A DNA stretch of 39,304 nt, taken from IMG/VR virus record IMGVR_UViG_3300047666_000962, positions 1 through 39,304 of that record, one strand, 5' to 3'. The stretch comes from a virus. The notes below the pieces were generated by a model. It searched no databases. It saw only the letters and a program-made list of their open reading frames with translations, and was not told the DNA's origin. How positions within the stretch are numbered: the first letter of the stretch is position 1; every line of letters begins with the position of its first letter. Of the stretch, positions 2,357-39,304 are shown piece by piece. The translations under genes and the position numbers were made by a program.

Positions 2357-5300
2357 TTAAACCTCTTTTAGTAATTTTATTATTGATAAATTCCGCTTAT
2401 TAACGTCGTAGTCCTTAATTGACATTAATCTATATATCTGGTCTAAAAACTTAATTTTCCTACTCCCTTCCATTTCGTTCCAGTCTTTTGTCGTTACTGA
2501 CATTTTTAACGTCAGAACCTCTGACAATCCAAATAATTCTAGGAGGTTTTCAAAGTACTTTAAGTACAACCCGTCGTCCCCGTCATACCTTAAAGTAGGG
2601 TATTTTATACCTGTTAAATTTTCATTTTCTCCATCAAATTGGCTTACCGTAGGCTTGAACCAGTATTTTTTAAGATTCATATAGTCAATGTCAGAGCGTG
2701 GCATATCTATAAGCGTGCCCCACTCTTCGGAGCTGTAATCTTGCGTGTACTGGTTTGCCGTTCCTAGATTATACATTAAGCGTGGACTATATCCAAAATC
2801 AAGCGACCAATTGCCGTATTTTTTTATCTTAAAAGATTCCTTTGATTGAATGGATGGAAAATCTAGTATCATTTCTCCATTCAAAGAAGGGACGGGCAAA
2901 ACGAAACCCTTTATCAAGCAAATGGAGCTGTCTAAAGGAGAGCAACTTTCTATGAATTCATACGGAAACGAACCTAACCCGAAACCATAGGGATTCGTAG
3001 AAATTGGCGACCTAAGGAACTTTGTTGCGCTAAACAATATCAAGTCGCTCGATGAATTCTCGCTATATGTGTTCTCGTTTTCAATTTCGATATTTGCGTA
3101 GTCTGCCGAAGATTCTAAACTAGAATTACAACCCCTTAAAGTTGATTCGTTTAGTAGCCTGTCATTTTCATCGTTCTTATAGCCAACCGACCAACTTTTC
3201 GGGCTTTCTATTGGCGTGGACTTCCATTTTTTGCTAACATCAACCCTGCTTGTTATGTCATACGCTTCGTTTTCATAATATCGAACAACTGGATAAAAAG
3301 AAATAGTTCCGTCGTTTACTTTATAGTGAAGATTGAACTGTTTTATAAAAGAACTTATAAAATCCTTGCCGCTTATATTTGGTAAGTTTTGAGCTAAATC
3401 TAAGTCGTATTCCCCACAAAGGTGGTCAATGGAATAATAAGAAGTTAAATTTGAAGGGTCTGGCAACGGGTTCGATATACTTGCGCCGAAATTTTGCTCC
3501 ATGTCCGAAACGGGGACAGCGTGGTCAAATACTGGATTTGCCGAATAATGCCTAGAAACCTCCCCGTATATATTACCCAACGAAACCCATAAAATTTCTA
3601 CCAAGTCCCCTTCTATTAAATCGATTTCGATTTCGATTTCTGCATAAGATTCCGAATGTTTCGGAATTGAATTATTTAGTAATTCGTGGGAAACAAAACT
3701 GCTAGAAGTTCCACCGAGCCCCACCTTTACGACGCTATTAAACTCTGAATAAGGCGACCCCATTATTTCGGAACTAGGAACAGAAATACCCCTGTCATTT
3801 AAGGCCCAACGCTTTGGGCTAAAGTAGGCTATTACGTCGCTTTTTTGGGTTGTTAAATCCTTATTTTGCCCGTTCATCCATTCAAATAAAAGGCGGTTAG
3901 TTTCTTCGCTAGTTCGCCCGTTCGGGTCTTTTCTCATAACTACCAGAACATTATCATCCCAAGAATAACGACGATCTACGAAAGGCAAAGAGCCGACCGA
4001 ATCCGAATCCCACGTACCAAAGGCATTAATAAGGGACGCACCTAACCAGTATATAGCACCTCCGCCGCCGCCGCTACCACCGCCGCCAATAACCTCCGCC
4101 GTTGTCGTAATTACATTATTGCTTAAGGTTATGGCAGCAACGCCCACCGTCATGACTCGACCATTTATAGAAGCTCCAACGCCTGCCGTAAAAGCCCCTA
4201 ATCCTATGACAGTTCCTTCTAGGTGTGCCGCTGCACCCAATGAGGGCGCACCAGTTACCGCCCAAAAAATATTCGAAGATTGTGCGCCGTTAATGAGTAC
4301 CATATTAGCAGCCGCCGCCGCTGCGAATGCGGCATTTATTTGTATTACAAATTGAGCTGCAGGATTCCCTTGAGCGTCAAAAGTTACCGTTGTAGAATTA
4401 GTTATAGCGGCGACCGCAAAAAAAACGCCTGCCGTAAATCTAAGACCTCCTATGTCGCCCGAAAAATTGGGCGAAGTGGCGACAAGGGCACTCGTGGCGG
4501 TTACGTATATATTGCCCGTAGGCGTAAGTCCTTTATAGTAATTATAAGCGGCGTTTAAGTCTATCATAGCCTGTGCGTAGGTAGAATTTGCATAGTGCTG
4601 AGAAGACCCAATCGAGACAGCCCCCGCAACGGTTCCCCCCGCCCACCAATTGCAAGACATCAAAGCCCCCGAAGTGGTAACGGCAGCGGCAGAGAGTACA
4701 CTAAAGTCATAAGCTGTCCCCAATTGAGTAGACGAGCTGCCACCGCCGCCGCTGCCGCCGCCGTATTGGGTAAAGCTATTATGAATACTTTCATACTGGG
4801 AAGCAACCTTGATTTTATAAACACCATTAGAAGGCACTAAATAAGACCCCTCTTTGTTGAAATTGTTCGTCAAAGAACACTTATCTACTACTAATGGGCT
4901 GAATCCGTCATGCTTTATGATGTTGGCAAACTTGAATAAAAAACGCTCTTCGTCTATCCAGAACTGAGTCGGAGTACTGCCGCCCAAAAAAGGCAAAGCT
5001 AGTCTATTTAACTCAATGGTTCCCCCGACATTTCCACCTACTTGCCTGTCAACTTCGTCGGTGTATTCTATTTTGTCGATACTGATATTTTGATTCTGCA
5101 AAACGGTAGGCGTGAACGAATAGACAGAACCTATGTTTCGCCAATTATAAAGGTATTTAGAACCCTCATAAGTCATATAGATAGTGTTAAACCAGTCTTG
5201 ATAAAATAATTCGCAATCGACAACCAAACCAACTTCTTTAAATAGTCGCTCAATTACATTTCGATAATACAAAGCAGGGGGAAAATGATTAAATTTTAGT

Positions 5301-5968
5301 CCCATTCTTAATTTATTAGGAAATCCACTAACTACGTCGAAGTCGTTAGGTAGAGACAAGCTTCCTCTTAATCTACTAGGTGGGCTTTGAGAGAGGTCGT
5401 ATTCCCCCCATATTTCGCCATCTTCCAAGTCTAAATAATCTAAAACGGGCGTATTGTTGTAAATTATAGTTGGACAAATAAAGTCCGTTTCCCTGTTTGA
5501 AAGGTCGTTTACTTCGTCAAACGTAATAGTTCCATCAAAAGGGACTAGCCAAGTGGGCTTATTGTCCACATACCCTAAGCGGTTCATTTTTACTTTTTCT
5601 AGCTTTTCGATAAAACTAGAATCTTTATCAAAAAATACACCTTCGTAAGCTTCAGAGCTTACGCCCTGTAATTTGAAAACGCCCCTAGCAACTTCGGAGC
5701 CGTTTTCGTTTATAACAGCTTCGTAGTTGTTGTTTAGATTGAATTTCCCAAAACTAGCAATCGAGGTTTTTCCTGCAAACAAAAAACCGTTTCTTTTGCT
5801 ATTTTTTGATAATTTAACTTTAGTTGAAAAAGTGCCACCTAACGACTTTAAATTCTTAGGCGAAGTCTCAAAAGACACTCTATTTAACCTATATTGAAAG
5901 TCGGTTACGTCGGCAGCGTAAAATAAGCCGTCAAGACCCTTTATTAGAAATTCTACTTTATTAGGCAT
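2357..5968 (-). CDS. 1203-aa tail/baseplate protein carrying an inserted DUF3494 ice-binding-like domain
   Basis: A large structural protein between the 580-aa tail protein and the tape measure, a position typical of tail-tip or baseplate components. Residues 1-400 and 640-1203 are beta-rich and unlike any family I can name. The centre is different: residues 403-413 (GGGSGGGGSSS) and 628-637 (GGGGSGGGGG) are flexible linkers enclosing about 213 residues. These match DUF3494, the fold of microbial ice-binding proteins: LGTAYDFSVL at 416, DIGGLRFTAGVFF near 505-517, TFDAQGNPAAQFVIQI at 529-544, VLINGAQSSNIFWAVTG at 557-573, LEGTVIGLGAFT near 583, GASINGRVMT at 598-607. The insert interrupts what reads as one beta domain (...NSFTQY / AIYWLGAS...). 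Identity of the insert is strong; its function here (ice, carbohydrate or cell binding) is inference. Start ATG 5968 lies 5 bases after the upstream stop. Confidence 0.9.
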   Translation of the reverse strand: MPNKVEFLIKGLDGLFYAADVTDFQYRLNRVSFETSPKNLKSLGGTFSTKVKLSKNSKRNGFLFAGKTSIASFGKFNLNNNYEAVINENGSEVARGVFKLQGVSSEAYEGVFFDKDSSFIEKLEKVKMNRLGYVDNKPTWLVPFDGTITFDEVNDLSNRETDFICPTIIYNNTPVLDYLDLEDGEIWGEYDLSQSPPSRLRGSLSLPNDFDVVSGFPNKLRMGLKFNHFPPALYYRNVIERLFKEVGLVVDCELFYQDWFNTIYMTYEGSKYLYNWRNIGSVYSFTPTVLQNQNISIDKIEYTDEVDRQVGGNVGGTIELNRLALPFLGGSTPTQFWIDEERFLFKFANIIKHDGFSPLVVDKCSLTNNFNKEGSYLVPSNGVYKIKVASQYESIHNSFTQYGGGSGGGGSSSTQLGTAYDFSVLSAAAVTTSGALMSCNWWAGGTVAGAVSIGSSQHYANSTYAQAMIDLNAAYNYYKGLTPTGNIYVTATSALVATSPNFSGDIGGLRFTAGVFFAVAAITNSTTVTFDAQGNPAAQFVIQINAAFAAAAAANMVLINGAQSSNIFWAVTGAPSLGAAAHLEGTVIGLGAFTAGVGASINGRVMTVGVAAITLSNNVITTTAEVIGGGGSGGGGGAIYWLGASLINAFGTWDSDSVGSLPFVDRRYSWDDNVLVVMRKDPNGRTSEETNRLLFEWMNGQNKDLTTQKSDVIAYFSPKRWALNDRGISVPSSEIMGSPYSEFNSVVKVGLGGTSSSFVSHELLNNSIPKHSESYAEIEIEIDLIEGDLVEILWVSLGNIYGEVSRHYSANPVFDHAVPVSDMEQNFGASISNPLPDPSNLTSYYSIDHLCGEYDLDLAQNLPNISGKDFISSFIKQFNLHYKVNDGTISFYPVVRYYENEAYDITSRVDVSKKWKSTPIESPKSWSVGYKNDENDRLLNESTLRGCNSSLESSADYANIEIENENTYSENSSSDLILFSATKFLRSPISTNPYGFGLGSFPYEFIESCSPLDSSICLIKGFVLPVPSLNGEMILDFPSIQSKESFKIKKYGNWSLDFGYSPRLMYNLGTANQYTQDYSSEEWGTLIDMPRSDIDYMNLKKYWFKPTVSQFDGENENLTGIKYPTLRYDGDDGLYLKYFENLLELFGLSEVLTLKMSVTTKDWNEMEGSRKIKFLDQIYRLMSIKDYDVNKRNLSIIKLLKEV
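4058..4762 (-). other. DUF3494 domain plus two Gly/Ser linkers, GC-rich insert in the tail gene
   Basis: The linkers are encoded at 4730-4762 and 4058-4087, mostly with GGC and GGT codons; the domain lies between at about 4091-4729. Counted 60-base lines in the insert give about 43-58% GC (33/60 at 4141, 34/60 at 4201, 26/60 at 4321, 35/60 at 4441). Lines in the same gene outside it give about 37% (22/60 at 3241 and at 5221). The frame is continuous through both junctions. This is the signature of a domain gained by horizontal transfer and accepted in a surface loop. The second and third rungs of a usual DUF3494 (normally near GDIGVSPG) are altered here, with a CNWW segment instead. Confidence 0.85.
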
Positions 5969-5973
5969 TTTTT

Positions 5974-7716
5974 TTATCTCTTTATAGTGTTATTATTAAC
6001 AGTTCTCGTGTAGCTCACTGATATGCTGCCGCTTCCGTCGCTTGTATTTGGCTTGTAATCATAAGACCTTATATCTATACTTTCGTACGCTTGAAGGTCG
6101 TTATTCCATTCATAAACCGCCGTACTTTCTAAAATCTTAATTACCCAATTATAATGAACCGTATTCATCAATCCAGAATGAACCGTTTTTACTGTCTGTA
6201 TTTCAATATCTACATTTAAAGATACTTCTTTACTAATTGCATTTATTGTATTTGCGTCAAATGGTAACGATCTAGTAATTGTATTTTTGGTCCTGTTTGG
6301 GCTTTTTTGGATTGAGCCACGAAACCCGACCGAATCCCACGCCCCGAATTCGTTCAAAAAAACTATTTGAGTTTCTGAATTATAGATATTTCTATCCATA
6401 ACATATTTTTTTACTTTAGATTTTCCACTTACGCCGCCTTGAGTTGACCACTTTAATTTTACTTCGTAAGAATCGACCAATTTACCATTCAATAACTCGT
6501 GGTCTTTTAATCCAAGCGCAACGGGCGAAACGTCAAAAGATAAATTTCCCGCAATTTCTTGATTTGAAAAATCGAACGAACTCAAGTTCACTAACTCAAA
6601 AGTTCCATCGTAATACATGTATTTTATCTCTATATTTGCGGTTATAGCTGCCTGCGTTGGTTTCTTGCAAATTAATTGCAAGAATGCGTGCGACTCATAC
6701 GTTAAACTTTCGTTTTCTGGACGAGAAGAAAGCCAATCGAAAGTATTTTCGGTTTCTGGCAACCAGACATACGTACTCATGTCGTAGGGGCGCAATTCGT
6801 CTAAGGCTCCCAATTGAACCCAACGAACAGGACTCACGCCCTTGACTATTCGCTTGCGTTGACCATTAGAAATGTATCTGAAAGAATCGCCATACACAAC
6901 GAAGTAAGGTCTAAGCAAAAAAGCCTTACCCCCGTTTTCGTCTTCAGAAGGAACTGAAAGCCCTGCGCCGCTTACGCCCGAATCCATAACTAAAAAGTCG
7001 CTAGATTTAGATAAGCTCCTTAACGGCAAAATTGGACTCACGTAGTCGCCTACGGGGTTCAGTAGGATACTTGCTTCGCTTTCCCCAGACGGAACTAAAT
7101 ACCTATCTATAAGTATAGAGCTAAACTTATTAACTTGACTAGAAAAAGACTCGAAACCGACGTATAGGTCTGCAAAAGCGGAATAATCAATTACATTTTG
7201 AGCTAAATACTTGCTAGTTCCTGTCGTTGACTGGTTGTAAATTCCTGCCGCCGACGAACTAGAAGATATATTGAATTTTTCGCCGTAAGATTTTGCCATT
7301 ACCCCAATTGAAGCCCCTGCCATTGAAATAATGTAATTCGAACCAAAGGACAATATTTGTTCTAAAGTGTCACTTATGGACTCGGAAACTGATTCTAAAT
7401 ATACAGACAATAGAGCAGCGGAGGGCGCAACCGATTCGGTTAAAAATTCCCCAGACGTGGGCGTCGTGCTTGCGGTTAGAGTTATCAAGGAATCAAGAAA
7501 GGAGAATGTAATCGTTTCGCCTTCTGGTATGAATGCAAATACAGCCAGTTGACACATAGCCTTGTTTTGTGAAACGGAAGATTCTACAGGCGAAAACCTT
7601 AATACTTTTACGTTTTCGCTTAATGTTATTTCGTTAGGCGATTCCGTCAATACGGACTTTGCATCTAGCTTTTTATTTGCGGAGTTGTTGCTGTTCCAAT
7701 TAATGGGAATTTTCAT
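5974..7716 (-). CDS. 580-aa putative tail protein
   Basis: Not assigned to a named family. It is beta-rich with many Ser/Thr/Asn residues, and has no signal peptide or membrane segment. A short segment near residues 459-490 (FLNEFGAWDSVGFRGS, then a basic stretch) resembles a motif I associate with distal-tail or baseplate proteins of Bacteroidota phages. The 1203-aa neighbour has a related string (INAFGTWDSDSVGS), hinting at a shared fold. It starts 2 bases after the 141-aa tail gene and ends 5 bases before the 1203-aa gene, so the genes are co-transcribed and probably co-assembled at the tail tip. Start ATG 7716 is the first in frame. Confidence 0.75.
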   Translation of the reverse strand: MKIPINWNSNNSANKKLDAKSVLTESPNEITLSENVKVLRFSPVESSVSQNKAMCQLAVFAFIPEGETITFSFLDSLITLTASTTPTSGEFLTESVAPSAALLSVYLESVSESISDTLEQILSFGSNYIISMAGASIGVMAKSYGEKFNISSSSSAAGIYNQSTTGTSKYLAQNVIDYSAFADLYVGFESFSSQVNKFSSILIDRYLVPSGESEASILLNPVGDYVSPILPLRSLSKSSDFLVMDSGVSGAGLSVPSEDENGGKAFLLRPYFVVYGDSFRYISNGQRKRIVKGVSPVRWVQLGALDELRPYDMSTYVWLPETENTFDWLSSRPENESLTYESHAFLQLICKKPTQAAITANIEIKYMYYDGTFELVNLSSFDFSNQEIAGNLSFDVSPVALGLKDHELLNGKLVDSYEVKLKWSTQGGVSGKSKVKKYVMDRNIYNSETQIVFLNEFGAWDSVGFRGSIQKSPNRTKNTITRSLPFDANTINAISKEVSLNVDIEIQTVKTVHSGLMNTVHYNWVIKILESTAVYEWNNDLQAYESIDIRSYDYKPNTSDGSGSISVSYTRTVNNNTIKR

Positions 7717-7718
7717 AT

Positions 7719-8144
7719 TTATTTTTTAAATATATCCTTTAATGCTTTTTCGATCTCTCTATCTATGTATAAAACCGCCAATTCGTGCGCACTTTTGCTA
7801 ATTGCTTCCAAGAACGGCTTAGGTTCAATTCCATTTGCTCCAATTGCGGCACTAAGAATATAAGCTAATTCTTTCTTAGTTACGTTATCGTTTTTAGGCT
7901 CAATCCCTTCTCTTCTTATCCAAGCCCGTATTTTATCCACGGGCGGAGGTGGTGCGCCTTTTCGCCTGCCGTCGTTTATATTTATGGCATACTTTCTAAA
8001 TCGTACTTTAATACTTCCGTTCTTTGCAATTGTTATTTTTACCGACCGTGCAAGCCTAGAATTGCCCAAATTTATACTTTGTAACACTTCTTGTACGGTT
8101 GTATCAATATCATCTTTTAAGTCGCTTAGGTCGAATCCTTCCAT
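7719..8144 (-). CDS. 141-aa tail protein, HK97 gp10-like pattern
   Basis: The middle reads as a neck/tail-completion pattern: a basic beta hairpin (IKVRFRKYAININDGRRKG, about 45-63), then PPPP, then IRAWIRREGIEP. The layout 'Y-A-x-x-x-x-G-R-R-x-G-x-P-P ... I-x-x-W-I-x-x-x-G-I' is common in HK97 gp10-like and related head-tail proteins. A helical C terminus rich in Lys and Glu follows. It is the first gene of the late tail operon, downstream of a possible promoter at 8174-8206. Its partners would be the tail terminator and tube proteins. The family call rests on pattern reading alone. Confidence 0.7.
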   Translation of the reverse strand: MEGFDLSDLKDDIDTTVQEVLQSINLGNSRLARSVKITIAKNGSIKVRFRKYAININDGRRKGAPPPPVDKIRAWIRREGIEPKNDNVTKKELAYILSAAIGANGIEPKPFLEAISKSAHELAVLYIDREIEKALKDIFKK

Positions 8145-8265: not shown

Positions 8266-8565
8266 TTAGTGCGTCCTCGAAGACAGGCCATAAGCTAGAT
8301 GATAGTTTTCAATCGTTTTATCTAGTAAAGGTTTGCGCCCCTCAATAAGTTCTGACACGGTGCTATCCTTCTGTAAATTTAGCTCAATGGGAATCACATT
8401 AAGGTATTCCAATTTTTCGTTTTCGATTCCGTCAACAGCTTTTAGGTTTGACGTTTTGGTCTGGTCAAAATGCGTACTTTCTTCGTCCTCTACGGGGTAT
8501 TCAACAACGCCGTTGGTGCAAGAAAATAAAAGCATTCCAAGTAACAACAAAAGAATGAATTTCAC
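8266..8565 (-). CDS. Small lipoprotein, possible superinfection exclusion or spanin role
   Basis: The first 16 residues, MKFILLLLLGMLLFSC, are a lipoprotein signal with lipobox LFSC, so Cys16 would be lipidated. The mature part is about 84 residues, acidic at first (VEDEESTHFD), with no recognised domain. In context it is the last gene of the left operon that starts with the replication initiator, not part of the late region. A small lipoprotein made early suggests superinfection exclusion, as known for other phage lipoproteins. An Rz1-like outer-membrane spanin is the alternative, but no partner spanin is visible nearby. Function is inference. Confidence 0.75.
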   Translation of the reverse strand: MKFILLLLLGMLLFSCTNGVVEYPVEDEESTHFDQTKTSNLKAVDGIENEKLEYLNVIPIELNLQKDSTVSELIEGRKPLLDKTIENYHLAYGLSSRTH

Positions 8566-8974: not shown

Positions 8975-9955
8975 TTATGAATTTAAAATTGATTTTATTA
9001 TCACTATTTTTGAGTATCTAGCTTGCCACTTTGCGGTAAATCCACCATCTTGCCCCTTGTTGCCTATTGACTTTATCATTTCAGTAGCTGCGAGTCGGTC
9101 AACATCCTTTTTTCTGCCGTCGATTCTTGCGTTTTTAAGCTCGTTTAAAGTTCGTTCCTTAGCTTCGCCTTTCGCTATCTGCCTTTCTTCGTTAGATAAC
9201 TTAATTATGCCGCTAGATACAAGAATCTTTCCCCAATATGACTTTACAGAATCTTCTACCACGCTTTTAGTCCACTTAGCAACTTCTTTGTTGCTCGGGT
9301 CGTTAATTTCTTGAAAGTACCTTAAAAGGGCCTTATACTCAAGTATTGCATATTTGTTCGCCTTTTCCTGCAAGGCTTCTTTTTCTTCGTCGGTTTTCTC
9401 CTTATTTGCAATGAAGTGCTTTTTCTCATACTCGGCGATTACGCCCCTTCTGAACTTCGTATAAGCAAATAGGACACGCCCTAAGTGCATAGGCTCGAAA
9501 ACCCAACCAAAAGTCCTAACGTCTGCCGTCAACTTTCCTGCCGACAACATAGAAAAAGCGTCCTCGATCTCAAAAACTCCAATTTCTGGGAATTGAACCT
9601 TTACGAATTCCGTACAAGACTCTAAGGCGTCAAACTGAGCTTCTAGCTTTGACTTTTCGGCGTCCGAAGCGGTGCTTAATGCCGCCTTTCTTAAATTAAC
9701 GCCGACATGCGACTCTATCTGTTTCAACAAAGTTGCCGCAATGGCTTTATTTAGCGTGTTAATTTGAGCTAAATCGCCGCCGTTTACTATTGATCTTATG
9801 TTAGTCGAACTCTTGTATAAGGTCACTATCTTCGTTGCTTGAGCTACTGGCAACCCCAGAGCCGCCGAAACGGTTGTTAAACTGATCTTGCAAAGAGTCG
9901 CTTTGTTCTGCGCTTCCGTAGTTAGTCCCGTTTGTTTTTCCTGCTTGCTTTTCAT
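8975..9955 (-). CDS. 326-aa hypothetical protein overlapping the initiator gene
   Basis: No family recognised. It is mainly helical and rich in Lys and Ala, with a long charged segment about 180-230 and a basic C terminus (GRKKDVDRL...KWQARYSKIVIIKSILNS). ATG 9955 makes it overlap the end of the upstream gene by 155 bases in another frame, unusually long for a phage operon. The next in-frame ATG would remove about half the protein, so either the overlap is real or a non-ATG start just after 9801 is used. Position behind an initiator-like gene suggests a DNA-replication role, but nothing in the sequence proves it. Confidence 0.7.
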   Translation of the reverse strand: MKSKQEKQTGLTTEAQNKATLCKISLTTVSAALGLPVAQATKIVTLYKSSTNIRSIVNGGDLAQINTLNKAIAATLLKQIESHVGVNLRKAALSTASDAEKSKLEAQFDALESCTEFVKVQFPEIGVFEIEDAFSMLSAGKLTADVRTFGWVFEPMHLGRVLFAYTKFRRGVIAEYEKKHFIANKEKTDEEKEALQEKANKYAILEYKALLRYFQEINDPSNKEVAKWTKSVVEDSVKSYWGKILVSSGIIKLSNEERQIAKGEAKERTLNELKNARIDGRKKDVDRLAATEMIKSIGNKGQDGGFTAKWQARYSKIVIIKSILNS

Positions 9956-10673
9956 ACGCTTCTAATTGTTGTTTAGATATGCCTTTTATAAATATTCCGT
10001 CGTATCCTATTCGATGGGTAGTTTCTAGCGCAACATAAACCGCCGCTATTCCGTAGGTTTTAGCACTTTCGTAAAAATAATTTGCTTGCTTCTGCAATCG
10101 CCATTGTTCAGTATATGACTTTTTCTTATGCTTAATGTAGTCAAAAAAGAACTCTTTTAAATCGTCTCCAAAGTCTTCCTTAAATTCAAGGTCTTCAATG
10201 TTTGCCTTTTTGGGCTTCTTTCGGGGTTTCTTTTTTGGCTTTTCTTTCGGCTCGTCTACTGGTTTTTTTATTTCGATTTCGTTAATTTCGGTCGGTTTGG
10301 CGTTTTCAAGGCTTGCAATTTGCTTCTTTAAATCTTTAATTTGCTTTCTTAAGTTTCCGACTTCAATATTAACGATTTCAGATTTTTTATTTTTGCCGTT
10401 GAATTTCTTCATTAGGCCAGTTGTAATTTCGTACTTATTGGATGCTCTCCTTGTCCGACCTTCAACAATTTGGTATCTAGGCTCAGAAGTTAAAAAGCCC
10501 TTGTCGATTAATTGTTTCCTGTACTTCTTAACTTTTTTTAAGTCCCACTTGCTACGACTGACCAGTACATCGTTGCTAGGGTGTGAAATTTTGCCGTAAG
10601 AAGCAAAAATTGACAACAAAAAATACTCTGAGTCTGTCAGCTCGTCCAGTATCGCTTCGTTCGTGTTTATCAT
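9801..10673 (-). CDS. Winged-helix replication initiator-like protein (DnaD / phage O-like)
   Basis: Residues 1-85 read as a winged helix (LTDSEYFLLSIFASYG, SRSKWDLKKVKKYRKQLIDKGFL, then a beta wing RYQIVEGRTRRASNKYEIT), as in the N terminus of phage O-type initiators and DnaD-like proteins. A coiled coil follows (about 100-125), then a Lys/Pro linker (PKEKPKKKPRKKPKK, near 140-157) and a helical C-terminal domain (about 165-250). The tail is Ser/Gly-rich and acidic. It would bind the origin and load helicase, perhaps with the AAA+ protein at 21572. It is the first gene of the left operon, behind a leader hairpin and next to the repeat cluster at 11086-11165 that could be its binding site. 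No enzymatic motif is present. Confidence 0.65.
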   Translation of the reverse strand: MINTNEAILDELTDSEYFLLSIFASYGKISHPSNDVLVSRSKWDLKKVKKYRKQLIDKGFLTSEPRYQIVEGRTRRASNKYEITTGLMKKFNGKNKKSEIVNIEVGNLRKQIKDLKKQIASLENAKPTEINEIEIKKPVDEPKEKPKKKPRKKPKKANIEDLEFKEDFGDDLKEFFFDYIKHKKKSYTEQWRLQKQANYFYESAKTYGIAAVYVALETTHRIGYDGIFIKGISKQQLEAYEKQAGKTNGTNYGSAEQSDSLQDQFNNRFGGSGVASSSSNEDSDLIQEFD

Positions 10674-27765: not shown

Positions 27766-30700
27766 TTACCCTTTAATTTCGACGTTTTCTGTATACTGCA
27801 AAAGCTCCACTAATCCAGAATCTTTAAAAGAAAATTCAAAATCGTAAAGGTAATTTAAAACCTTAGAGGGTGTGGAGTATTGAATATTTTGCGCTCTGAA
27901 AGTCTTTTCGATTGCCGTGCTGCTAATTAATTGCATTTCGTAGATACTAGAAACGGATTGAGACCCGCCATTCGTCGGGCCAACACTAAGTTGAACAGAA
28001 GCTACCGAACTAATTGCAGAACCTATCACCGATATTATTGCCGTTGTTATGTTTCCAATTGGCGAATGAGTAACCGCCAAAGAAGACACGCAAACCGTGC
28101 AAGGCGAACAAATTAAAGAGCTTTCAACGGGACTTTGAGCTGTTATGTCAGTTCCTAAATATTGCAAATAGTCAACGGTTCCCCAGATTAAAGGAGAATT
28201 TGAGATTTCCGAAAAGGTCAAATTTCCACTACTTGAGAAGTCGAAAGATTTTAGATTAGTCTTGCCGAATTGGTCGGTATATGAAACGAAACCGCCGTTT
28301 GATAAAGAGCCAAGGGCGGCAGAAATTCCAGTATCTAAAGCGGAATTTATACCCGAAGGTAAAGTAAATGTATACGCTGAATTAACGCCATTTTGTGGGT
28401 AATCAATCCATAAATAAACGTCAAAAGTTAATTCCTTACCGCTGAACGGAAAAGAGGTAGTTAATCTACTTATCGCCATTTCTCCGCTCGTACTATTCCA
28501 CGTAAGCGAAACTACATCTTGAATTGATTCCGTTTCTTGGAACTCGCCAATAGTTAAATTTCTGGAGCCTAATGAGGTAAAAGGAATTACGGTTGGCAAT
28601 GTCGCCCACTCTAAGCCAATGTAGGGATTTATTTTTTCACTTAAAGAATTGGTATAAATCGAATTAGTTGACGAAAGCGAAAGCAAACGACCGATTGAAA
28701 GTTCTTTTATTTGGGTTAAATTGAACGCACTTTCAACCATAAAGCTAAAGCTATACGTCATATCAACAGGATTGAACTTGTAAGCCAATAGCGACACGCC
28801 TTTTACTTGATCAAACAACCTAGTTAGATAGTGTGAATTCTCGTTTTGGCTTATCGCTACGGGCGAAACTATTACCGTCGTGCTGCCGTTTATTGTGAAT
28901 TCAAATACATTGCCGCTGCTTGAATTGCCTGCCGAAGCGTCTAAAGTTGCAAGTACATAAGCATGAGTAAGACTTGAATTAAAGCCATTAAAACAACTCT
29001 TTAGTTGCGTTTGAAGCGTCGGGGTAATGCAAGTATCAGACACGCTACTTGTTGTTATTTGGGAAATTTCAGAGTAAGGTAAATTATCAAAGGCGTAATT
29101 AAGTGCTATATTTTCGATGCTCTGATTACTGGTTTCTGCTAAATTCAAAAGCTCAAAAGTTAAATTGTCCGAAATTCCCGTTAAGTAGTCGCCGTTTATT
29201 TCGTTTCCGTATTGGTCTGAATGGGTCACAATAGAGCCGACTGGGGCGTTAGTTTTTAACTGCAAAGCCCTTGATTGAATCCAGCCTACTTGTGAGTTAG
29301 TCGGCGCACTTTCTCCGCTAGCGGACGAGCTAAAGAATGGATTTTTTTGGTCTGCATTCATTCCAATAACAAAAAAGTCAATTTCAACACCTAGTCCAGT
29401 GTCACTAAAAGACATAGAATTTAAGTCCACTAAATCGAAACCCGACTCAGTTATTTTATTTTTAAAGTCAGTTTCAAATGTAGTTAGATCACTATGCCAA
29501 AGCTCGAAACTTTTATAGAACTCATAAAAAGTGCCGTTGATATTTATCTTAATATCTTGGAATTTTGGAGAAACTAAGCCCGTATTTGCTGCATTAGAAA
29601 ATGAGACATAAGGTACGAAGATTTTATGTTTCGCCCCTTTGTAAAATTGAAAGTCTACACTTTGAGAACAGGCGGACAATGTATTTTCGTGCAAATATTC
29701 ATATTGAAAAGGCGGACAGTCAAGACCCCCTAAAGAAAAAATTAAATTAATATCTTGATTTGGGTATAAGTTCGATATAATTACTATAGAATCATTTGTT
29801 TTGCCAGAAACACCCGAAACGCCCGTTAATATTTCGTCGTAGCCGCCCGAATATATGACATTATTACTACCGTCTTTTAGCTCTATAGATGTATTAGAGT
29901 TTGCTATATTTGGACTAAGGGCAACTTTGAATCCAAGCTGTGCCGAAACGCTCGTATTGGTCGATGAAATTCCGTCAATAATTAAAGCCCCAAAAGAGGT
30001 ATTTGGAGATTCTATTTCCACAGTAAATGTGTCGCTAATTAGGTCGTAATTTGCTGAGAAATTAGTTATTGTGCCGCCTGCTTCAAACATTGACAATAGC
30101 CTTAGTTCGTCACTTAGTTTTAAGTTTGGAAGTGAGGCCCAAAAGTTGGGATTTAAAACGGGCTGCATAGTGTAATTATAAGCCCTGTCATCTGCCGAAA
30201 AATCAAATTGACTATAATTCAATGTACTTGCATTACTAAAAGATATAAGAGAGTATCTATTCTCCACAACCGTCACAGAACTAAAACAACTTTCGTCTAT
30301 TGCTTCAATTTCCTTTAGTTGCTCTTTTTCCTCCGACTCAAAAACTAAAGTATAGTCGTTTTCGCCATCCTTTGCGCCCGTGGACAAAGTTAAAGACTTG
30401 AATTTACAAGGATAATTCTTTCCCATAATCCAAGAATTACCGTTTGCATCTTCAAAGATTAGGGTCAAATCAAGCCCTTTTAAAGCCTTAAACTCTCTTC
30501 GTTTATCTCTATCTAACTTAGGAAAAGATAGAGTTAATTGGTGGTTCATAAAGGCAAAATTTCCGCTTCTTTCGTTTCCAGAATAAAAAGACTGTTTCTT
30601 ATTGGGTCGGTAGGTGGTTGGTAAATTTGCGGCGGTGTATTTGGTTATGAAATTTAAGTCGTCATTAGTGTATCTGTATTCGCCAATTTCCCCAAAAGAA

Positions 30701-30768
30701 AATACATGAATCTTAGATATTGAAGGCTTGTTAAGACCGCAATTGTTTACACCTATTAAATTATTCAT
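27766..30768 (-). CDS. 1000-aa tail protein with tail-tube-like N terminus
   Basis: Residues about 80-160 (KLDRDKRREFKALKGLDLTLIFEDANG, MGKNYPCKFKSLTLSTGAKDGENDYTLVFESEE) follow the tail-tube pattern of short hydrophobic strands around a 'D-G-x-W/F-x-x-G' turn and a 'sG...D..gYt' end. The remaining 840 residues are beta-rich, Ser/Thr/Asn-rich modules with scattered Cys pairs (CPPFQYEYLHENTLSAC, DTCITPTLQTQLKSC, CSPCTVC), suggestive of a surface-exposed extension. The middle also repeats a string of the 190-aa tube protein (EIDFFVIGMNADQKNPF here, ELDFAIVGMDTENKNSF there). Candidates are a decorated minor tube protein or a tail spike. Confidence 0.7.
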   Translation of the reverse strand: MNNLIGVNNCGLNKPSISKIHVFSFGEIGEYRYTNDDLNFITKYTAANLPTTYRPNKKQSFYSGNERSGNFAFMNHQLTLSFPKLDRDKRREFKALKGLDLTLIFEDANGNSWIMGKNYPCKFKSLTLSTGAKDGENDYTLVFESEEKEQLKEIEAIDESCFSSVTVVENRYSLISFSNASTLNYSQFDFSADDRAYNYTMQPVLNPNFWASLPNLKLSDELRLLSMFEAGGTITNFSANYDLISDTFTVEIESPNTSFGALIIDGISSTNTSVSAQLGFKVALSPNIANSNTSIELKDGSNNVIYSGGYDEILTGVSGVSGKTNDSIVIISNLYPNQDINLIFSLGGLDCPPFQYEYLHENTLSACSQSVDFQFYKGAKHKIFVPYVSFSNAANTGLVSPKFQDIKININGTFYEFYKSFELWHSDLTTFETDFKNKITESGFDLVDLNSMSFSDTGLGVEIDFFVIGMNADQKNPFFSSSASGESAPTNSQVGWIQSRALQLKTNAPVGSIVTHSDQYGNEINGDYLTGISDNLTFELLNLAETSNQSIENIALNYAFDNLPYSEISQITTSSVSDTCITPTLQTQLKSCFNGFNSSLTHAYVLATLDASAGNSSSGNVFEFTINGSTTVIVSPVAISQNENSHYLTRLFDQVKGVSLLAYKFNPVDMTYSFSFMVESAFNLTQIKELSIGRLLSLSSTNSIYTNSLSEKINPYIGLEWATLPTVIPFTSLGSRNLTIGEFQETESIQDVVSLTWNSTSGEMAISRLTTSFPFSGKELTFDVYLWIDYPQNGVNSAYTFTLPSGINSALDTGISAALGSLSNGGFVSYTDQFGKTNLKSFDFSSSGNLTFSEISNSPLIWGTVDYLQYLGTDITAQSPVESSLICSPCTVCVSSLAVTHSPIGNITTAIISVIGSAISSVASVQLSVGPTNGGSQSVSSIYEMQLISSTAIEKTFRAQNIQYSTPSKVLNYLYDFEFSFKDSGLVELLQYTENVEIKG

Positions 30769-35213: not shown

Positions 35214-36524
35214 TTAGTAGTTTTGCTGCTTTTTTTGGTTGCTTATCATGTTTAATTCGAATGTCTGAACATTGCCCATATTGTATACGGCAATTGCTAA
35301 GGACATAACTCTGTCATCGTGAACGCCATTCGAGCCACCGTATACAGGCTTTCCGTTTACCCATTCACATGTAAAATGGTCTAGCTCGTCCTTTAAATCT
35401 TGAATATCTGGTATAGAAATTGCACCCGTATTAAACTTAACTTGTAAGTTAATAATCATGTCCGCCTTACTTGCGCCGTTTTTCTTTCCTCCAGTGACCC
35501 AAGGTCTAGTATTTCCATATTGCGCCCTTAGTAGCTCGTAAGGGACTTGACCAACTCCATTAACCTCTACGTAGCAAACGGGGCTACCGTATTCTTTTAA
35601 TCGAATTGCGACCCTTTGCATAATGTCGGAGTACTCTAAATGCCGCCATTTTTCGGTAAAAATCAACCGTCCTTTTTTATCTAAAATAGTTAGAACGGTA
35701 TAATCTTCTTTGCTTGCTATGTCAACGCCTGCCATTCGCCCAACTTTAGGTAGGTCGATATATTCTTTTATTGGCATTAAGCAATCGATGTACCCAAAAA
35801 GCCCACTTCCTGCGTCCAGAAATTCGCCTAGATACTCATTTCGATAGGCTGCTTCTGGCATTCCTTTTTTAGTGTCTTCGAGTATGCTTTTATGTATTCG
35901 CCCCCCCTCTTCTGTAGTAAAACGAATAGTAACCTTTCTTTCGCCTTCGTCTTTTACTTGACCAAAGAACCAATTTTTCGTTTTTGGCGTGGAGGTTAAT
36001 AGTACTTTTCCATGAAAGCCAATCAATCCAAGTGCATTGGATTTAGATAAAGAAGCGTTGACGGTTGGTTGTATTGCTTGCGTCCAAATTTCATCTTTAA
36101 TGAAACAAGCTTCGTCTACTATGATAGCGTCGAATGTTTCCCCCCGACAATTGTCATTTTCTGAAGTAAAAAACTGAATAGTCGAGCCGTTCCAAAATTC
36201 GACAATTAAGTCGGTATGATTGAATGACAAACTACCGTGCAATGGCGTTAGCATCTTCTTTAAGCCCTTGAAAACCTTTTTGCATTGCTTGTAAACAGGC
36301 AAGAAAAAGCCGATCTTAAAGCTTGCATATCCTAACGCCCAAGCGGCAGCGGTTACGGTACATATTAACGTCTTGCCAACTTGTCGGCCCGTGCACACTT
36401 TTACGTATTGTATGCCGTTGCCGATCTTGCAATGGTTGTATATTTCTCGCTGCCTTTCGCTAAGTTCAAAACCTAAACTAATCTTAGGTTTGTACTTTTT
36501 TGCCTGCTTTTCGCTTAGTGTCAT
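35214..36524 (-). CDS. terL: Terminase large subunit
   Basis: The packaging motor ATPase and nuclease. ATPase domain: Walker A TGRQVGKT at 45-52, Walker B DAIIVDEA at 132-139, coupling motif LLTSTP at 175-180. Nuclease domain: Asp268 in GVDIASKEDYTVL (RNase H-like first Asp) and HDD at 402-404 before RVMSLAIA as the last acidic motif. 436 aa is a normal length for the family. It follows the 83-aa gene by 10 bases. A headful mechanism would fit a circularly permuted genome, but the protein alone does not decide it. Confidence 0.95.
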   Translation of the reverse strand: MTLSEKQAKKYKPKISLGFELSERQREIYNHCKIGNGIQYVKVCTGRQVGKTLICTVTAAAWALGYASFKIGFFLPVYKQCKKVFKGLKKMLTPLHGSLSFNHTDLIVEFWNGSTIQFFTSENDNCRGETFDAIIVDEACFIKDEIWTQAIQPTVNASLSKSNALGLIGFHGKVLLTSTPKTKNWFFGQVKDEGERKVTIRFTTEEGGRIHKSILEDTKKGMPEAAYRNEYLGEFLDAGSGLFGYIDCLMPIKEYIDLPKVGRMAGVDIASKEDYTVLTILDKKGRLIFTEKWRHLEYSDIMQRVAIRLKEYGSPVCYVEVNGVGQVPYELLRAQYGNTRPWVTGGKKNGASKADMIINLQVKFNTGAISIPDIQDLKDELDHFTCEWVNGKPVYGGSNGVHDDRVMSLAIAVYNMGNVQTFELNMISNQKKQQNY

Positions 36525-38316: not shown

Positions 38317-39304
38317 TTAATTAAATGACGTTTGATTCTCTACTTTTGCCTGTTGCGTCTGTAAGTTAGTTATTTCTGTGACATTTACCGATATATTCAG
38401 CTCAGAAAGTTGTTTTAATAATCTGTTTTCGTCACTTGATGAAACTTTATTTAGTGCTTCAAAATTGGGGGTAACGTCGCCCCCAAATTGGAATTTTTTG
38501 CCGCCTGCACTTGCGTTCATTTGACTAAGCTCCTCTTTGTACATTTGCGTTGCCCTAACTGTCATTATAGATTCTCCGCCTTCTAACTCTATATTTGGCG
38601 CACCTTTTACCGAAGCAGAAACACCGCCGTTTGCGTGACTTGCGCCTTGCACAATTCCCCCGTCTGCAAATTTTTTGCTCGCAATAACGCCAACTTCTAC
38701 CGCTACCGCTGCGCCTGCCGTTGCCGCTAAGATATAGTTAGCAGGCGTAAAGGGTTGCATTGCCAAAGCTCCAGAAACGGCTAGCGCACCATTTACAACG
38801 GCTTGCGTTAGTTGTATAATTCGCTGTGTCTCCGCCTGTTTTCTTGCCGCTTTTTCTGCCTGTTGGTTTAGTTTTTCTTTTGCGCTCTTTTCGATTTGTA
38901 ATTGCCTTTCAAGAAATTGTTTTCTTACACCCGTGGCGTTTTCTAAATCTTCATTTATGGCATCAATATTTCTTTGCCTTTGCGCTATTGAGTCGGCAAA
39001 AGCTTTATTTTCTGCCGCCGCCGCCGCTGCTTGAACTTTTCCTATCAAGTCAAAAGACACTTGAACGGCAGACGTAACAGCCGAAGCAATGGCTTTGCTC
39101 CTAGAAATAGAGGCATCTAAATCTAAGTCGCCCTGTTCTTCTTCTTTTGCCTGCTTTTTTAAATATTCTTCGTCAGTCGCTTCTATTTCTCCAGAGAATC
39201 CTTGCTCTCTTTTTTTTGCCGCTTCTGCATTTGCATCATTCCTAAGCGTTTGCATTTTCTTTAAATGCTCTTTTTCTTGAAGCTGCAAAAGCTTATTATT
39301 TAGC
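38317..39304 (-). CDS. Tail tape-measure protein, C-terminal part (residues about 708-1035)
   Basis: The frame enters from the window end and stops at 38317. It is the continuation of the gene at 1-2355; about 78 residues are encoded twice because of the terminal redundancy. It carries a long coiled coil (AKKREQGF...KEKLNQQAEKAARKQAETQR), hydrophobic ANYILAATAGAAVAVEVGVI near 895-920, and the closing segment FADGGIVQGASHANGGVSAS, then IELEGGESIMTVRATQ, the Gly/Glu-rich form I associate with the C terminus of Bacteroidota-phage tape measures. The residue that differs between the copies is Ala (left) or Thr (right) at 750. Confidence 0.9.
   Translation of the reverse strand, partial: LNNKLLQLQEKEHLKKMQTLRNDANAEAAKKREQGFSGEIEATDEEYLKKQAKEEEQGDLDLDASISRSKAIASAVTSAVQVSFDLIGKVQAAAAAAENKAFADSIAQRQRNIDAINEDLENATGVRKQFLERQLQIEKSAKEKLNQQAEKAARKQAETQRIIQLTQAVVNGALAVSGALAMQPFTPANYILAATAGAAVAVEVGVIASKKFADGGIVQGASHANGGVSASVKGAPNIELEGGESIMTVRATQMYKEELSQMNASAGGKKFQFGGDVTPNFEALNKVSSSDENRLLKQLSELNISVNVTEITNLQTQQAKVENQTSFN
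39070..39304. repeat. Right copy of the terminal redundancy
   Basis: Same as 1-235 except T at 39177 for C at 108. See the left copy for interpretation. Confidence 0.95.

Follow-up and report, generated by a model that had tools for sequence, protein, structure and literature searches.

A DUF3494 ice-binding-type domain tethered by Gly/Ser linkers within a phage tail protein

The closest described systems for the domain reported here are the type 1 ice-binding proteins (IBPs) of the DUF3494 family, among them EfcIBP (6EIO), a Flavobacteriaceae IBP (5UYT), FfIBP (4NU2), a domain of SfIBP_1 (6BG8), and AnpIBP (7BWX). In SfIBP, a hyperactive IBP of Shewanella, column 2 of the B-face has been reported to consist of alanines only (PMC12337378). 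Genes matching the Pfam family PF11999 (Ice_binding) were found in an Arctic virome and treated as auxiliary genes with a possible function in host cryoprotection, and Synechococcus phage S-SKS1 was named in the same work as having ice-binding-like homologues (PMC11515562). One antifreeze gene has been reported in a virome (PMC8407431). Among domains carried on virions, Hoc of T4-like phages is reported to be an Ig-like domain that binds mucus (PMC11853027, PMC10385173).

Here we describe a DUF3494 domain within the tail protein of a phage. It has the same profile as the type 1 IBPs, a predicted solenoid with a long helix, and a small-residue B-face. Unlike them, it is internal to a tail protein, has no signal peptide, is shortened at the N terminus, lacks the full T-A/G-x-T/N motif, and is known here from its sequence and a structural model. 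Whereas the virome genes of the same family were read as serving host cryoprotection, this domain and those of several IMG/VR contigs are parts of structural proteins. The role that we propose is akin to that of Hoc-type domains as accessory virion domains that retain phages in the host's niche; Hoc-type domains have an unrelated fold, are located on the capsid, and recognize mucus as their surface, whereas the function of the phage DUF3494 domain is one that we infer.

The window, by which we mean the whole 39,304-nt stretch of viral DNA that was analyzed, ends in a 235-bp direct terminal repeat (bases 1 to 235 and 39070 to 39304, assigned to no strand), the two copies of which differ by one mismatch. 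Because of this repeat, the record closes to a genome of ~39.07 kb, and the contig is a near-complete phage. The genome contains genes for the terminase large subunit (TerL; 35214 to 36524, minus strand; PF03237, E = 1.3e-17; PF17289, E = 8.4e-9) and the portal, as well as RusA- and YqaJ-type genes in the early region. No Rfam families or tRNAs were found within the 39,304-nt stretch. Relatives of TerL in IMG/VR are 32 to 43% identical to it in the best segments. Shine-Dalgarno cores precede just 6 of the 42 genes, and the upstream bases are 55% A. Scarcity of such cores together with A-rich upstream bases is indicative of a Bacteroidota host, and the translation signals accordingly suggest that this phage may infect a Bacteroidota-like host.

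Three other loci of the minus strand were recorded along the way. A small predicted lipoprotein (MKFILLLLLGMLLFSCTNG) is encoded at 8266 to 8565, adjoining the tail genes. At the head of the late strand, two ORFs on the same strand overlap (8975 to 9955 and 9801 to 10673); the latter has a weak helix-turn-helix match (PF13730, under the cut-off). The gene at 27766 to 30768 encodes a 1000-aa protein without a Pfam family, whose weak matches are one unknown PHROG and small proteins near the portal end of relatives.

The tail gene occupies positions 2357 to 5968 of the minus strand and encodes 1203 aa, with an ATG start and no internal stops. On the closed genome, it is followed directly by a tape-measure-like gene of 1035 aa, which crosses the record ends (first part, 1 to 2355; second part, 38317 to 39304; minus strand) and finishes at 38317. 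Gene order beside the tape-measure gene suggests a possible location at the tail tip. The DUF3494 domain comprises residues 414 to 626 (4091 to 4729, minus strand) and is enclosed by the two linkers listed in the initial annotation, both of which proved exact: GGGSGGGGSSS at residues 403 to 413 (4730 to 4762, minus strand) and GGGGSGGGGG at residues 628 to 637 (4058 to 4087, minus strand). In the AlphaFold2 model, the linkers have low confidence (low pLDDT at the N-terminal one), which fits a flexible chain. No other long Gly/Ser linkers were seen among the proteins of this stretch that were scanned.

The assignment of the domain to DUF3494 is secure. PF11999 matched residues 427 to 621 (4106 to 4690) at an E value of 1.3e-29 and a score of 103.8 bits, as opposed to a cut-off of 28.7, over profile positions 26 to 208 of 208; this was the only PF11999 match in the record. 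A sequence search against solved structures returned 25 DUF3494 sequences, led by 5UYT and 6EIO (best E = 7.5e-22). These matches bear out the family landmarks first recognized by eye, such as LGTAYDFSVL (residues 416 to 425) and GASINGRVMTV (residues 598 to 608). AlphaFold2 prediction of residues 395 to 645, based on 61 sequences, gave a pTM of 0.80, with pLDDT of at least 90 in 152 of the 251 residues, and produced the irregular triangular beta-solenoid with the long alpha-helix alongside (model residues 68 to 85) that marks the family. When this model was compared with the PDB using Foldseek (E of at most 0.001), all 31 chains retrieved were DUF3494 (best E = 8.9e-13), with 20 to 30% identity to the solved members. 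The only three significant matches in BFVD were to proteins of Hyperionvirus, all named DUF3494.

Compared in the alignment with typical members, the domain has a shortened N-terminal part, which was also the weakest in the model (pLDDT of 58 to 65). The complete N-terminal segment xxTGDxGxxPGxSxTGF is absent, with the profile match beginning at position 26; this segment is variable across DUF3494, and a profile match is possible without it. The domain has no signal peptide or other means of secretion of its own, since it is internal to the 1203-aa ORF.

The flanks of the insert are homologous to tail proteins of ~950 to 1000 aa from TerL-related phages in IMG/VR. The profile of this ~1000-aa family matched the C-terminal flank with E = 8.5e-11 and the N-terminal flank with E = 0.0029, both values being computed over a small set of this phage's sequences. 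Conservation is best in residues 839 to 987 of the C-terminal part (3008 to 3454, minus strand), which the hmmsearch match to the flank alone covers. A profile was required to establish the family link, as plain sequence search of the TerL relatives with the whole tail protein gave no match at an E value of 0.001. Searches of IMG/VR gave no close relatives of either flank, and searches of INPHARED gave none for the full-length tail protein or for a protein of the head region. Four members of the tail family (L031, L043, L054, and L190) reach 1480 to 1698 aa and end in a C-terminal extension of long, repetitive, Asn-rich sequence.

The neighborhood of the tail gene is likewise shared. The 580-aa gene before it (5974 to 7716, minus strand; phmmer E = 2.9e-7 and 2.1e-4) is homologous to a ~420-aa gene at the same place in the relatives L008 and L004, and the 141-aa gene at 7719 to 8144 (minus strand; 24 matches, best E = 5.3e-9) has homologues downstream of TerL in many relatives. 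In L004 and L008, a ~185-aa gene, a ~420-aa gene, and a ~1000-aa gene follow one another, and in L004 the next gene is again tape-measure-like. This phage and its L004/L008 kin thus have the order of a small gene, a ~420- to 580-aa gene, the tail gene, and the tape measure. The C-terminal half and the gene order make a firm case for kinship with the tail family; for the N-terminal half, we judge the case to be moderate.

Twenty-one relatives of the tail family lack the insert. They have 169 to 248 aa between two anchors, and the comparable stretch of this tail protein has ~574 aa, 235 of which are the insert. The two flanks, joined solely to display the empty site, were collinear with the family over their length in a local hhalign alignment (E = 1.7e-4, with a probability of just 50%). 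In this weak alignment, the insert site falls directly after GSYLVPSNGVYKIKV, and the last residues before the insert (373 to 402, GSYLVPSNGVYKIKVASQYESI...; 4763 to 4852, minus strand) are aligned with a probable beta-sandwich of the relatives; the insert probably sits in a loop of this sandwich. Full-length AlphaFold2 prediction was set aside for locating the insertion site because the flanks were misaligned in its mixed alignment and the pLDDT was 48. Together with the insert-free relatives, these data support the initial proposal of a DUF3494 domain inserted into a phage tail protein and tethered at both ends.

We evaluated how common DUF3494 is in other viruses. An alignment query retrieved 128 IMG/VR stretches encoding the domain, and a second query built from the viral clade retrieved 84, largely the same contigs; apart from the structural cases described below, some of these may be proviruses with host genes. 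By a crude rule, a signal-peptide-like start was present in 6 of 72 distinct viral proteins as opposed to 21 of 33 Bacteroidota proteins. In three unrelated phages, the domain is inserted into a tail sheath or sheath-like protein: L122 (4297 to 7155; phrog_279, E = 1.7e-25, two matching stretches; DUF3494 at 143 to 315), L108 (7326 to 9821; DUF3494 at 234 to 423; C-terminal part matching the sheaths of Bacillus phage G and Tunturi_5), and L112 (139 to 2610). These resemble the present case in that a tail protein carries the insert, but the carrier is a sheath rather than a tape-measure-adjoining protein, Gly/Ser linkers are absent, and the domains lie on another branch of the tree. DUF3494 also occurs in a collagen-like tail fiber (L157), in a gene clustered with terminase, portal, and major head proteins (L141), and in a gene following terminase and portal (L139). 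Judged from these predicted proteins, DUF3494 is a recurrent structural module of phages. The initial annotation knew of no described case; our search of open-licence PMC papers likewise yielded no account in which DUF3494 is a part or module of the virion, but the domain itself is far from unique among viruses.

PF11999 searches that do find the copy in this phage gave no match in S-SKS1 (HQ633071), Tunturi_3, or Tunturi_5, and no control genome matched there. Two contigs encode neighboring DUF3494 gene pairs, a sign of local duplication (L113, 7197 to 9608 and 9622 to 11673; L145, 7632 to 8747 and 8752 to 9849). In ten others (L107, L109, L114, L123, L125, L134, L140, L143, L148, and L153), the domain follows a start that looks like a fibronectin-type repeat (SWDPSPTPVSGYNVYRGT), a likeness judged by eye for which Pfam gives no such domain.

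The register of the putative ice-binding B-face was set by alignment and published descriptions (PMC7277481, PMC12337378) rather than by coordinates; the published columns are numbered from 0 and were matched here by residue pattern. This register is supported by EfcIBP, in which column 2 gives S, T, A, as published. In the alignment register, the six rows of the face read AAVT-AAIT-AAFA-GAPS-GAFT-AAIT. Column 2 would accordingly be alanine in all six rows, a pattern unique among the 106 sequences compared, on a face of small residues. Column 4 reads T, T, A, S, T, T, with Thr or Ser in five of six rows. No bulky, aromatic, or charged residue occupies any of the 18 outward positions, although the absence of bulky and charged residues is also true of 26 of the 105 other sequences. 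The initial annotation had found the T-A/G-x-T/N motif not obvious, and the full motif is indeed absent, its first T occurring in none of the rows; the A/G-x-T/N part, however, is present in four of six. The active members 6EIO and 5UYT (domain 2) also lack the full motif. The putative ice face is therefore better than was first thought, and ice binding by this domain is plausible. Since five of the six column-2 alanines also occur in ten further viral sequences, the pattern may in part be a group trait, and the face may have been inherited rather than selected.

We consider it probable that the DUF3494 domain is an adhesion arm displayed by the virion on its tail. On such linkers, the domain would be free to swing away from the tail, and several copies per assembled tail would provide avidity. 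The flat alanine/threonine face could then dock weakly to an extended, ordered surface, either ice or a carbohydrate matrix, and such docking would keep virions near host cells ahead of receptor binding. In favor of display, we count the fold, the insert-free relatives, the adjacency of the tape measure, the phage-like codon usage, the presence of DUF3494 in other structural proteins, and the six-row face; against it, we count the missing full motif, a face read by alignment, an insertion point taken from a weak alignment, and the low pLDDT (58 to 65) of the N-terminal part. Ice is plausibly the most specific single candidate for the ligand because of the all-alanine column 2, as reported for the hyperactive Shewanella IBP. 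We propose it tentatively; its likelihood, like that of the rival ligand below, overlaps with that of display, and these likelihoods are not meant to sum to one.

The main rival to ice is a glycan of the host or matrix, with the domain serving as a lectin-like scaffold for a polysaccharide or host-surface glycoprotein at reversible first contact and having no role in ice binding. This reading has display in common with the one above and departs from it in the ligand; it is a real possibility, proposed as tentatively as ice itself. DUF3494 is found in many viral contigs and in very different virion parts, beyond the apparent need of an ice function, and a tail location suits contact with the host. 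However, we found neither a carbohydrate site nor a glycan-binding relative within DUF3494, and the 18 outward positions checked include no aromatic or charged residues, which is unusual for a sugar-binding site.

It is unlikely that the domain is a ligand-free structural spacer or decoration, in which a stable solenoid would serve to fill or shield one of the loops of the tail protein. Phage tails often acquire such domains without known ligands, and many assemblies tolerate the fold, as its insertion in sheaths and fibers shows. On the other hand, a long flexible linker at either end suits reach over rigid packing, and the regular small-residue face is retained in all six rows.

As to origin, the initial annotation had the module taken from a cold-adapted microbe. 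That the gene of a secreted ice-binding protein was recently captured from a cold-adapted host of the Bacteroidota now appears very improbable. The insert with its linkers has a GC content of 0.52 as opposed to 0.37 and 0.39 in the flanks, and this excess of 13 to 15 points agrees with the 10 to 20 points first noted; moreover, DUF3494 is frequent in Bacteroidota (32 of 296 genomes above the cut-off), and the translation signals hint at such a host. The excess, however, lies in the first and second codon positions (0.52/0.55). The core has a GC3 of 0.411, compared with 0.403 expected for the same amino acids in this genome, and its codon log-likelihood ranks at the 26th percentile among 62 segments of equal length from other late genes; third-position GC was high in the two linkers alone (0.71 versus 0.51, 21 codons). 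The GC excess thus reflects Ala and Gly content, and codon usage fits the phage, with no sign of a recent donor. A recent donor read from high GC was rejected on these grounds.

In a tree of 107 DUF3494 domains, this domain fell in a set of 21 rows (support of 99/98), including 17 viral and 3 bacterial ones, apart from the main Bacteroidota group of secreted IBPs. Its end branch is long (0.96), as are those of its nearest partners, and its exact placement is therefore unsure. The highest identity among the sequences of the tree was 38%, and a scan of genome contigs, which finds close relatives only, returned one relative at 27% identity; both values argue against recent capture, as does the mainly viral set, albeit with a long branch. 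No close relatives of the domain were found in IMG/VR and INPHARED, and PF11999 gave no match among TerL relatives in the 33 viral records searched. Circulation among phages is a likelier route into this tail than recent acquisition from a cold-living bacterium. An assembly chimera joined at the two Gly repeats, which are similar, GGC-rich, and of a kind where short-read assemblies can misjoin, is highly improbable given a frame that runs intact through both junctions without a stop, a core with the codon usage of the phage, and a domain of a mainly viral group without a signal peptide.

In the broadest proposal, DUF3494 would serve tailed phages as a recurrent virion adhesion module, shared among sheaths, fibers, head-cluster proteins, and this tail protein, and would here bind ice or ice-brine exopolymer. 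The virion would then be an ice-attached particle, and this the first phage known to have its own ice adhesin; we regard this combination as somewhat doubtful. If the domain does bind ice, phages would be among the participants in ice attachment in cold ecosystems, and whether brine channels retain virions could be tested directly. Even without ice binding, "ice-binding" genes that virome studies have credited to host cryoprotection may in many cases encode components of the virion, since DUF3494 recurs in sheaths, fibers, and other structural proteins. Such a reading would change how the "ice-binding" genes of polar viruses are interpreted.
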